Source: Actinomycetota bacterium (GTDB taxonomy: Bacteria > Actinomycetota > Acidimicrobiia > Acidimicrobiales > CADCSY01). From it: a stretch of DNA of 35,456 nt. The notes below the pieces were generated by a model. That model was not told where the DNA came from. It worked only from the letters and a program-made list of their open reading frames with translations, and made no database searches. Below, piece by piece: positions 17,671-21,445 of this stretch (its first letter is position 1; each line of letters opens with the position of its first letter). Position numbers and translations under genes: made by a program. The stretch spans positions 1-35,456 of the forward strand of contig SIRW01000085.1 in NCBI GenBank assembly GCA_004366205.1, written 5' to 3'.

Positions 17671-18148
17671 CCCTCCAGCGCTCGGCCATGTCCTCGTTCT
17701 GGATGCGCTCCTGGAGCAGCACGATCCCCTCGAGCAGCGCCTCGGGCCGGGGCGGGCAGCCCGGCACGTAGACGTCGACGGGGATGAGCTGGTCGACGCC
17801 CTTGGTGACCGAGTAGCTGTCCCAGTAGGGGCCGCCGCAGTTGGCGCAGCTGCCCATGGAGATCACGTACTTGGGATCGGGCATCTGCTCGTAGAGGCGC
17901 AGCACGGCGGGCGCCATCTTGTCGGTGACGGTGCCCGAGATGACCACCAGGTCGGCCTGGCGGGGGCTCGCCGGGAAGGGGATGACGCCCAGGCGCATGA
18001 CGTCGTAGCGGGGCGAGCCGAACGCCGCGCCCATCTCGATCGCACAGCACGCCAAACCCCACTGGTACACCCACAGCGAGTACTTGCGGCTGGCGTTGAG
18101 CAGCTTCGTGAGCGGCTTCGGGATCCGACCGCGGTCGACTAGACCCAC
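17648..18148 (-). CDS. nuoB: NuoB, cluster N2 subunit (nuo1)
   Basis: This 166-residue subunit holds the last [4Fe-4S] cluster, N2. The ligands are C34 and C35 (LACCAIE), C101 (GSCANCGG) and C131 (PGCPPRPEA). An extra cysteine, C104, makes a CxxC with ligand C101; the nuo2 NuoB has Ser there. GTG 18148 follows AGGGAG by seven bases and overlaps the nuoA end by ten bases. Length is typical. Confidence 0.95.
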
Positions 18149-18513
18149 CGGAGCACTCCCTTCCGCCAGGCGTAGACGATGGCCAGGTCGAGCACGATCA
18201 CGAAGATGGCCATGGTGACGAGGCCGTACATGCCGAGGGTCGCGAACTCGACGGCCCACGGGAAGATGAACACGGCCTCGATGTCGAACAGCAGGAACAG
18301 CAGGGCGAAGACGTAGTAGCGGATCTGGCTCTGAGGAAACGCCCCGCCCACGGGATCGACGCCGCTCTCGTAGTTGATGTACTTCTGCGGCTGCGGCCGC
18401 CGGGGGCGGATCAGCCGGCCCAGTCCGAGCGTCACCATCACCAGCGCGAAGGCGGCACCACCCACCACCGCCACCGTGAGGTAGGCGCGCAGGAACTCGG
18501 AGTACTCCGGCAC
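18139..18513 (-). CDS. nuoA: NuoA, small complex I membrane subunit (nuo1), first gene of operon
   Basis: This 124-residue subunit has three membrane helices. Family motifs are [13 protein letters not shown] in the first loop (canonical YECG is YESG here, so the Cys is absent), [24 protein letters not shown] with the membrane acid pair D-x-E, and [11 protein letters not shown] at the end. The GTG start lies seven bases after a TAGGCT -10 box, so the mRNA is probably leaderless. It is the first gene of the 11-subunit operon. Confidence 0.94.
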
Positions 18514-18591: not shown

Positions 18592-18638
18592 CTTTCCGGA
18601 CCGCGCGCGCTCATATGCGACGTCGAGGGTCCCGAAAG
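18592..18638. repeat. Palindromic repeat copy R1
   Basis: 47-base element: arms CTTTCCGGACC and GGTCCCGAAAG (one mismatch from perfect pairing) around a 25-base loop that ends ATGCGACGTCGAG. R3 and R4 share the loop almost base for base, and all three have CACCA before and CGGGCGGG after the arms. Confidence 0.85.
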
Positions 18639-18665
18639 CGGGCGGGGGCGGGCGCACCCACGCAG

Positions 18666-18710
18666 TTTCCGGACCCTGAACGCGCAGATGCGACGTCGAG
18701 GGTCCGGAAA
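18666..18710. repeat. Palindromic repeat copy R2 (diverged)
   Basis: 45-base element with perfect 10-base arms TTTCCGGACC/GGTCCGGAAA and a 25-base loop. The right half of the loop (ATGCGACGTCGAG) matches the other copies; the left half and the flanks do not. Same orientation as R1, R3 and R4. Confidence 0.8.
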
Positions 18711-18792
18711 GCGCCGGGACCGGGGGCCGGGCCGGTGCTCGCGAAGGGGCACGAGAGGGCATGTTGTTACACCCCTTGGACAGACTCGCTCC

Positions 18793-19713
18793 ATGGACGC
18801 ACTGACCTACACCCGGGCGACACGGGTCGCCGCTCGGCAGCACGGCCTCCTGACCCTCGACCAGGCCATGGCGGCCGGGCTCTCGGTCGCGCAGGTGCGC
18901 CGGCTGGTCGCCACGGGTGTGTGGCTGGGCGTCCGGCCCGGCGTGTTCGCCGTGTCGGGCACGGTCCCCAGCTGGGAGCAGCAGGTCGCGGCGGCGTGCT
19001 TCGCCGTCCGTGGGCCAGTGGCCGCTTCCCACCTGACGGCAGGGAGGCTCGCGACCCTGCGCGTGCCCGAGCCCGACCGGATCGACCTCATCACACCCGA
19101 TGACCGCCGGCTGCGGGCGCGTGGCGTGCGCCACCACCGCACCGACGTGCTGCCGGACCGCGACATCCGCAGCCTGCGCGGCATCCCCACCACGACGGTC
19201 GCCCGCACCCTCTGCGACCTGAGCGGGCTGCTGTCGGTGCGGCGGCTCGACGCCGCCGTCGTCGACGCCGTACGGCGCGAGCTGGTCGAGCTGCCCGACA
19301 TCCACGCCTGTCACGAGCGATTGGCGCTCGGGTCCGGTCGGCGGCCACACCGGACCATGACGGCGGTGCTCGAGCGCCGGACGCTCGACCTCCACCCGGG
19401 CGACAGCGACTGGGAGCTCTGGGTGGCGGACACGCTCACCGCAGCGGGGTTCGAGCCGGTCCAGCAGCACCGGGTCCGCATCGGCCGTCGGGAGTTCGTT
19501 CTCGACGTGGCCCTGCCGGCCGAGATGATCGACGTCGAGTTCGACGGCTGGGCCGCTCACCGCAACGTCGAGGCCTTCCACGCCGACCGCGAGCGGATGC
19601 GGCTGCTCGCCGCGGCCGGCTGGCGGCTCGTCCCGGTCACCGCCCGCACCACCGCCGCCGAGCTCATCGACGCCGTGGCCGCCCACGTCGCCGCCGCCCA
19701 CCACTCCGCCTGA
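18793..19713 (+). CDS. AbiEi-like/DUF559 protein (PD-(D/E)xK-like C-terminus)
   Basis: This 306-residue protein is of the type often labelled AbiEi-family antitoxin with a DUF559 domain in actinobacteria. Residues 1-60 look like a winged-helix region (ARQHGLLTLDQAMAAGLS, then RRLVATGVWLGVRPGVFAV). The C-terminal domain has a Vsr/PD-(D/E)xK-like pattern: E208 in SDWELWV, D238 in FVLDVALP, E249 and D251 in VEFDGWAAH, then RDRxR-like HADRERMRLLAAAGWRLV. No AbiEii toxin or other partner gene is present, and the real function of this family is not known to me. It is the only + strand gene between the two nuo operons and has two palindromic repeats on each side. No ribosome binding site or clear promoter is visible. 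Confidence 0.8.
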   Translation: MDALTYTRATRVAARQHGLLTLDQAMAAGLSVAQVRRLVATGVWLGVRPGVFAVSGTVPSWEQQVAAACFAVRGPVAASHLTAGRLATLRVPEPDRIDLITPDDRRLRARGVRHHRTDVLPDRDIRSLRGIPTTTVARTLCDLSGLLSVRRLDAAVVDAVRRELVELPDIHACHERLALGSGRRPHRTMTAVLERRTLDLHPGDSDWELWVADTLTAAGFEPVQQHRVRIGRREFVLDVALPAEMIDVEFDGWAAHRNVEAFHADRERMRLLAAAGWRLVPVTARTTAAELIDAVAAHVAAAHHSA

Positions 19714-19753
19714 CCGACGACCCCCCCGGCATCCGCGACCCCCACCACCACCA

Positions 19754-19800
19754 CTTTCCGGACCGCGCGCGCTCGTATGCGACGTCGAGGGTCCGGAAAG
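19754..19800. repeat. Palindromic repeat copy R3
   Basis: 47-base element with perfect 11-base arms CTTTCCGGACC/GGTCCGGAAAG. The loop differs from R1 and R4 by one base. It begins 40 bases after the DUF559 gene stop. Confidence 0.85.
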
Positions 19801-19841
19801 CGGGCGGGCGCCGGGCGCATCCGCGACCTGCGCCGCCACCA

Positions 19842-19888
19842 CTTTCCGGACCGCGCGCGCTCATATGCGACGTCGAGGGTCCGGAAAG
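19842..19888. repeat. Palindromic repeat copy R4
   Basis: 47-base element with perfect 11-base arms and a loop identical to R1. It lies nine bases beyond the nuoN (nuo2) stop, so it would form a hairpin in the 3' end of that transcript. There is no T-run after it, so it is not a typical intrinsic terminator. Confidence 0.85.
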
Positions 19889-19897
19889 CGGGCGGGG

Positions 19898-21445
19898 TCA
19901 GCCGGCGAGGACGAGGAGGGGCGTGGCGTCGCGGGCGAGGTCGACGAGGGGGCCGGGCAGGATGCCGGCGGCGAGGGTGTAGACGACGGCGACGGCGAGG
20001 GTCAGCTTGACGCCGAGGGGGATGGGGGGCCGGACGGGGCGGGGGGCGGGACCGGTCCGGGCGGCCTGCTCGTCGGTCTGGGAGTACATGGTGACGATGA
20101 GGCGCAGGTAGACGAAGGCGGCCACGACGGCGCCGAGCATGGCGGCGACGGCGAGGAGGTAGGTGCCGGCGTCGACGGCGGCGGCGATCACGTAGAACTT
20201 GGCGAAGAACCCGGCGGTGAGCGGGATGCCGGCCTGGGCCATGAGGAACAGCGTGAGCGCCAGGGCGAGCCCGGGCCGGCTGTAGGCCATGCCCCGGTAC
20301 GCGTCGAGGTCGTGGCCCACGTCGCCTCGCCGCGAGACCGTGGTGAGCACGGCGAACATGCCGAGGATCACTACCGCGTAGGTCGCCGAGTAGAAGAGCA
20401 CGGCCACCACGCCCTGGTCGGTGGCGGTCTGCACGGCGACGAGGATGAACCCGGCGTGCACGAGCGACGTGTACGCCAGCGTGCGCTTGAGGTCGGTCTG
20501 CACAGCGGCGAGCACGGCGCCCACGACCAGGGTGAGCACGGCCAGCGCCCCGACGATCGGCTGCCAGTCGAGCTGGTAGCCACCGAAGGTCGAGACGAAC
20601 ACCCGAACCAGTGCGGCGAAGGCGGCCGCCTTGGTGGCGGCGGCCATGAACCCGGTGATCGGCGTGGGGGCGCCCTGGTAGACGTCGGGCACCCAGACGT
20701 GGAACGGCGCGGCGGCCACCTTGAAGCCCAGGCCCACGAGCAGCAGGGCGAAGCCGGCCAGCAGGAGCCCCGTGGACTCGAGCACGTTGCCGGCCAGGAA
20801 GTCGGCGATGCGCGCCAGGTTCGTCGACCCGGTGGCTCCGTAGACGAGAGCGATGCCGTAGAGCAGGAAGGCCGACGAGAACGCGCCCAGCACGAAGTAC
20901 TTCATGGCCGACTCCTGCGACTCGATGCGGCGCAGGTGGTAGCCGGCGAGGACGTACACGGCGATCGAGAGGATCTCGAGGCCGAGGAACAGCACGATCA
21001 GGTCACCGGCCGCGGCCATGACGATGCCGCCCGTGCCGGCGAGGAGGAGCAGGGCGTAGAGCTCGGGACCGTCGAGCCCCTCGCGGCGGAGGTACCCGGC
21101 GCTGGTCATGGCCGTGAGGATCACCGCCACGCAGACCACGACGGTCACGAACACGGTGAAGCCGTCCACGGCGACGGCGCCGGCGACGGCGCTGGAGGGC
21201 CCCCGCTCGGGGTCGGTGACGCGCACCCACACGGCGGCGGCGAGGCCGATGGCGACGAGCGAGGTCACCACGGTGACCGCCGCCCACACCCCTGGAGCCG
21301 GCCGCCACCGCGTGACGCCCACGAGCGTGAGGATCAGCAGCGAGCCGGCCAGCAGCGCGACCGGGGGCGAGATGGCCAGCCAGTCGATGGCCGGTGTGTC
21401 GATGGGGCCGAGCTGCTGGGCCATGACGGCGGGGAGGGTGCTCAC
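19898..21445 (-). CDS. nuoN: NuoN, complex I antiporter-like subunit (nuo2)
   Basis: This 515-residue proton-channel subunit is the last gene of the 14-subunit operon. E157 (FLGLEILSIAVYVLAGY) and K242 (GFKVAAAPFHVWVPD) are present, then VYQGAPTPITGFM and AATKAAAF. GTG 21445 overlaps the nuoM stop (GTGA). Downstream are only the R4 and R3 palindromes and the convergent DUF559 gene, so the operon should end here. Confidence 0.95.
   Translation of the reverse strand: MSTLPAVMAQQLGPIDTPAIDWLAISPPVALLAGSLLILTLVGVTRWRPAPGVWAAVTVVTSLVAIGLAAAVWVRVTDPERGPSSAVAGAVAVDGFTVFVTVVVCVAVILTAMTSAGYLRREGLDGPELYALLLLAGTGGIVMAAAGDLIVLFLGLEILSIAVYVLAGYHLRRIESQESAMKYFVLGAFSSAFLLYGIALVYGATGSTNLARIADFLAGNVLESTGLLLAGFALLLVGLGFKVAAAPFHVWVPDVYQGAPTPITGFMAAATKAAAFAALVRVFVSTFGGYQLDWQPIVGALAVLTLVVGAVLAAVQTDLKRTLAYTSLVHAGFILVAVQTATDQGVVAVLFYSATYAVVILGMFAVLTTVSRRGDVGHDLDAYRGMAYSRPGLALALTLFLMAQAGIPLTAGFFAKFYVIAAAVDAGTYLLAVAAMLGAVVAAFVYLRLIVTMYSQTDEQAARTGPAPRPVRPPIPLGVKLTLAVAVVYTLAAGILPGPLVDLARDATPLLVLAG

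Follow-up and report, generated by a model that had tools for sequence, protein, structure and literature searches.

The stretch of DNA analysed here (35,456 nucleotides, hereafter the window) carries two nuo operons, coding for complex I, in tandem on the minus strand (positions 8273-35455). The upstream operon looks complete, and one gene is enclosed between its nuoN and the nuoA of the next operon. Several genomes of the family show the same tandem arrangement, their two NuoN paralogues being about 40% alike. Four palindromes of the same orientation, two on each side of the enclosed gene, had been described in an earlier note and can be read directly from the sequence (Table 1). The label given there to the enclosed gene needs revision, as PF04480/DUF559 is absent from its Pfam matches and AbiEi_4 was found instead (2.8e-10), together with a weak match to REase_MTES_1575 that lies below the cut-off of that family.

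Table 1. Coordinates of the nuo genes, the enclosed gene and the palindrome copies (window positions unless a locus handle is given).
Feature	Position	Strand	Basis or remark
nuoA of the downstream nuo operon	18139..18513	-	Pfam Oxidored_q4, 8.4e-34
R1, palindrome copy, 47 nt, 45-nt core at 18593-18637	18592..18638	+	sequence
R2, palindrome copy, other sub-type, left inner half CTGAACGCGCAG	18665..18711	+	73 bp after R1
Enclosed gene, 306 aa, AbiEi_4 N-terminal and REase_MTES_1575-like C-terminal domain	18793..19713	+	Pfam
R3, palindrome copy	19754..19800	+	sequence
R4, palindrome copy, 88 bp after R3	19842..19888	+	9 bases from the nuoN stop (19898)
nuoN of the upstream nuo operon	19898..21445	-	Pfam Proton_antipo_M, 1.1e-71
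45-nt palindrome family of the sister genus (G004)	L277:3042-3189 and L298-L313		two copies at the nuoN-nuoA junction

All four copies are imperfect palindromes of 47 nt on the plus strand. R1, R3 and R4 are near-identical (1-2 bases apart), and their flanks agree over up to 11 bases on the left and 9 on the right; between R1 and R4 about 67 bases, flanks included, are nearly identical, and the right arm of R1 carries one changed base (GGTCCCGAAAG). R2 differs from these three at 7-8 of 47 positions and has only 2 flanking bases in common with them on each side, so that two sub-types can be distinguished among R1-R4. Several details of the earlier description hold as given: the arms of R2 are 10 bases long, its outermost base pair being broken; the loop half adjoining the right arm, ATGCGACGTCGAG, is identical in all four copies and has 0 matches in shuffled sequence; and the coordinates agree with a position of R4 nine bases after the nuoN stop.

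Copy number, anatomy and setting of the palindrome

A covariance model built from 49 copies located the element in about 67 distinct places of the 3.44-Mb Acidimicrobiales genome (136 matches, the two strands merged), and the palindrome is hence dispersed and not confined to the nuo locus. A pattern search allowing at most 3 mismatches matched 35 places, the reversed control pattern giving 0. The 45-nt unit, TTTCCGGAC...GTCCGGAAA, is imperfectly palindromic and contains an inner CGTC-N7-GACG dyad whose right half is the best preserved. The CGTC motif is internal and paired (positions 16-19 with 27-30). Exactly 25 bases separate the 10-base arms in nearly every copy, and the arm-to-arm length is almost always 45 nt. 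Conservation spans from about 3 bases before TTT to about 3 bases after AAA, that is, some 3 bases beyond the 45-mer, and the paired ends of the family read CRC-TTT and AAA-GYG.

No covariation of the arms was found among the copies of this genome, arm changes being both less frequent than in shuffles and less often compensated. As the arms are conserved as sequence in the absence of such covariation, a DNA sequence signal is favoured over a purely RNA-structural one. The suspicion of a dispersed element or a protein site, raised from the four copies, is accordingly backed by the copy number and by the conservation of arms and inner half; a REP-associated transposase is not supported. A search for PF01797 (Y1 transposase) returned 0 matches at E<=1 in the genome, while the control was positive in 10 of 14 genomes, and RAYT was rejected as the mobiliser.

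The exact 22-mer had no match in GTDB genome contigs, a collection from which the source genome itself may have been left out, and no significant match occurred in nuo-region DNA (466 kb in all) of other actinobacteria and Acidimicrobiales. Viral contigs, phages and plasmids held no match to the family either, and a phage or plasmid origin was rejected. No description of the family was found in the open-licence literature. The starts of two contigs of the genome, C49 (L094:1-189) and C119 (L098:41-85), fall within arrays that have a common spacer, probably because the assembly was interrupted there by a longer array of the repeats.

With genes called by codon usage, 38 of 39 repeat clusters were intergenic. 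Thirty-five clusters could be placed between gene pairs that are convergent (15), divergent (9) or unidirectional (11); the convergent excess reached p=6e-4 by intergenic length, a value that ignores that the regions were chosen for holding repeats. Among 200 flanking genes no gene family recurs meaningfully, and an association with a neighbour gene was rejected. Thirty nearest neighbours of arrays that were checked are ordinary genes, e.g., mraZ, ftsX, a penicillin-binding protein and thiolase. One two-copy array (L088:8424-8540) lies between a lipoyl-ligase gene and mraZ, which is downstream on the same strand, and is upstream of a cell-division gene.

This setting bears on the proposal that the hairpins act at RNA 3' ends, terminating or stabilising mRNAs on both strands, with R4 serving nuoN and R3 the enclosed gene. 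Strong predicted folds (-26 to -34 kcal/mol, z -3.7 to -7.1; R4 at -32.6 to -34 kcal/mol), the enrichment between convergent genes and the proximity of R4 to the nuoN stop speak for such a role, and capping of the nuoN mRNA by R4, as suggested earlier, is possible on the predicted fold. The flanks of the stem point the other way: on both strands TTT precedes and AAA follows it, which is the reverse of an intrinsic terminator, whose form of a GC hairpin followed by a T run was not found. Moreover, the 9 clusters between divergent genes, the uncompensated arm changes within the genome and the lack of any Rfam family above its gathering score for the palindrome count against it, and we consider this role improbable as the main explanation. 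Under the reading preferred below, the hairpins could still protect or end flanking mRNAs, as REPs do, but this would be a side effect of the repeats and not the reason for their conservation.

Tandem arrays and the nuoN-nuoA junction

Copies within a cluster share one orientation and follow each other head-to-tail. The array step is 71-73 bp in 20 of 25 spacings and 79-88 bp in the remainder, and the spacers are near-identical inside most arrays and unrelated between arrays (47% identity). In C111, C87 and C32, in the R3-R4 pair of the window and in one array of the sister genus G004, the spacer is readable as a copy's right flank joined to its left flank, with join offsets that differ from case to case. 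The duplicated segment measures about 72 bp in C111, C87 and G004, and 79-88 bp in C32 and R3-R4. Such a composition is the signature of a copy having been duplicated in tandem together with its surroundings, as a segment of roughly constant length; the right-flank-plus-left-flank trace is missing from most other arrays. Either the mechanism of duplication or selection acting on the spacing could account for the constant step. Four pairs with copies 72-73 bp apart (L096:9816-9933, L097:4928-5044, L103:3537-3653 and L114:10083-10200) combine two clearly different sub-types. Some pairs are therefore not recent duplications, though the same step is kept.

The junction between nuoN and nuoA varies among relatives. 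It is 48 bp long in G002, 74 bp in G011 and 226 bp in G003. Elsewhere it is occupied by genes that were assigned by eye and not with Pfam: an unnamed one in G007, a methyltransferase-like one in G004 and transporter-like ones in G006. No repeat was detected in the stretch searched of the G007 insert, and the G004 junction contains two copies of a different palindrome, 74 bp apart.

These comparisons bear on the idea, advanced from the window, that recombination between direct copies could excise the enclosed gene, and on the repeats as a device for bringing it in. In its fuller form, the paired direct repeats would be the boundaries of a movable unit carrying an AbiEi/REase gene, which is excised by recombination or by a repeat-specific enzyme. 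The arrangement of two copies on each side of the gene, the extended identity of R1 and R4 including their flanks, and the absence of this gene from the junction of relatives are consistent with it, and the geometry makes excision between R1 and R4 possible. However, the junctions of relatives hold other genes or none, in G007 with no detected repeat; the genome's other DUF559-type genes lie away from repeats; no gene family turns up repeatedly next to the clusters; and most clusters flank nothing in particular. A device of this kind was not supported by the comparison: the gene cassette was rejected as the main explanation, given the position of the DUF559-type genes elsewhere and the variation of the junction, and we judge it very improbable. 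The finding also cautions against taking four repeats that surround one gene in a single window for the boundary of a cassette, as they are samples of a family spread over the genome.

Palindromes of the same geometry in other lineages

The sister genus G004 has a multicopy palindrome family of its own, found by sequence similarity (16 matches). Each resolved copy is exactly 45 nt long, from GTT to AAC, with arms GTTGTGTGCGC...GCGCACACAAC that are unrelated to those of the genome studied here. CGTC is typically at positions 16-19 and GAC at 27-29, the consensus of our family has CGTC and GACG at the same positions, and the tandem step of the G004 family is 72-74. Copies of 45 nt with yet other arms, single or few, were observed in five genomes (G011, G203, G040, G144 and G322), with 4 strict matches in G011; in G144 the 15-nt centre of our family (CGTCGNCATNCGACG) is retained, the arms being different. 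The arm type of our family was found in none of 394 other genomes of the order. In a model search of 59 genomes, no other member of the order had more than a single weak hit. Further copies of G144 and G011, outside the model-building set, scored E=1.5e-6 and E=6e-4, respectively. Intergenic DNA of the genome could not be aligned to that of other genera.

A permissive palindrome scan produced hundreds of chance palindromes, and an intergenic scan requiring stricter arms took its place. A geometry pattern allowing one mismatch was likewise noisy, and only its excess over a reversed control was counted; across 397 genomes it gave 32 matches against 1 in the own genome, 10 against 1 in G004, and 14 against 0 in G144 and G322, the latter two being genomes in which 45-nt copies were also seen directly. 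Covariation of the dyad between lineages was 0.430 (ungapped alignment of 18 copies), compared with 0.184 +/- 0.025 in shuffled and <=0.126 in slid alignments, a value that is inflated since the copies of G144, G322 and G203 came from palindrome- or geometry-based scans, those of G004 having come by sequence. The dyad thus appears to be kept between lineages by compensatory change, and a DNA dyad would give the same covariation as a structured RNA.

Two further palindromic arrangements were encountered. A separate 49-nt palindrome, GTTCTTTGTCGC...GCGACA(A/G)AGAAC, is common to G010 (L244:766) and G011 (L256:10001) and is perhaps another repeat family. In G322 (L372:18660-18850) tandem repeats resembling GCCGGCGCCGCCCCGCCCTCTAA come after the 45-nt copy.

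The fixed geometry suits a host protein-binding site equally well. The palindromes might be dyad operators for a chromosome-organising or topology protein (gyrase- or HU/IHF-like), with the 72-bp step reflecting the helical phasing of cooperatively bound sites. Conservation of the arm sequence with no covariation inside the genome, the 45-nt length and inner CGTC/GACG positions fixed across lineages, and a near-constant array step despite unrelated spacers would all be expected of it. Yet copy number varies sharply by genus, from about 67 here and at least 16 in G004 to 4 strict copies in G011 and none of the arm type in the 394 others, which is unusual for a housekeeping site, and divergent, convergent and unidirectional gaps all tolerate copies. 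We therefore regard host sites as a rather unlikely account, though one to be taken seriously.

Interpretation and comparison with known repeats

The reading that we prefer, at a probability of roughly two in three, is that the four copies R1-R4 represent an untagged REP-like repeat, which spread as a non-autonomous element and formed arrays by tandem duplication. The palindromes are probably mobile, non-autonomous DNA whose recognition depends on a two-part dyad; we infer this mobility from the copy-number differences between genera and from the dispersal. Under the proposed mechanism, the repeats would be recognised in trans, via the bipartite dyad, by a putative protein co-evolving with the arms, and local arrays would arise through tandem duplication of a segment of about 72 bp round one copy. 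At the nuo junction, R1, R3 and R4 may stem from one expansion and R2 from another, and the AbiEi-type gene would be a separate occupant of a variable inter-operon gap.

A broader proposition is that an order-wide superfamily of mobile palindromes exists, with a fixed geometry (45 nt, inner CGTC-N7-GACG, outer TT/AA, tandem step of about 72 bp) and arm letters turning over by lineage, moved by a non-RAYT enzyme that co-evolves with the arms. We put this forward tentatively, as a possibility that goes well beyond the reading of R1-R4. Sister genera with the same geometry, different arm letters and a fixed 72-bp step offer a comparative handle on the recogniser of the repeats. Its gene should be one that the copy-rich genera have in common, and its DNA-binding surface should vary along with the arms.

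Among known systems, MITEs resemble the family in being small, non-coding and dispersed inverted repeats. In contrast to MITEs, the whole unit here is one 45-nt palindrome, and no target-site duplication was found: direct repeats in the flanks of 18 single copies scored 2.06 compared with 2.03 in mismatched pairs. Among the genes neighbouring the repeats, no recurring family suggested a parent transposon with shared terminal repeats. REP/BIME elements with RAYT (GTAG superfamily; PMC2817692, PMC3733652) are, like the family described here, short dispersed palindromes of intergenic location with a bias to 3' ends and convergent genes, a clustered arrangement and lineage-specific sequence. Unlike the GTAG REPs, the present repeats have no GTAG tag, measure 45-47 versus 20-40 nt (PMC2817692, PMC3733652), occur in a genome with no RAYT, and form head-to-tail arrays, whereas head-to-tail dimers are absent or rare in GTAG families.

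The CGTC-tagged REPs (Di Nocera 2013, PMC3733652) share with our family the palindromic form, the lack of an associated transposase and the CGTC motif, and have no known mobiliser (PMC3733652). They carry an unpaired terminal CGTC tag, 8-9-bp stems and CCA tails and form head-to-head dimers (PMC3733652), whereas in our family CGTC and GACG pair with each other inside the palindrome, on either side of a 7-nt centre, and the copies are head-to-tail. No unpaired GTAG or CGTC tag was found at one end of the palindromes. Because of the missing unpaired tag, the missing RAYT and the head-to-tail arrays, we assign the family to an untagged REP-like superfamily and not to REP proper. Untagged REP-like palindromes are not reported for Acidimicrobiales in PMC3733652, and the family looks like a previously undescribed relative of bacterial REP repeats. 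Untagged REP-like palindromes of M. tuberculosis, D. radiodurans, Bordetella and Brucella are mentioned in that survey (PMC3733652); by description, the family shares with them the REP-like character and the lack of a conserved terminal tag.
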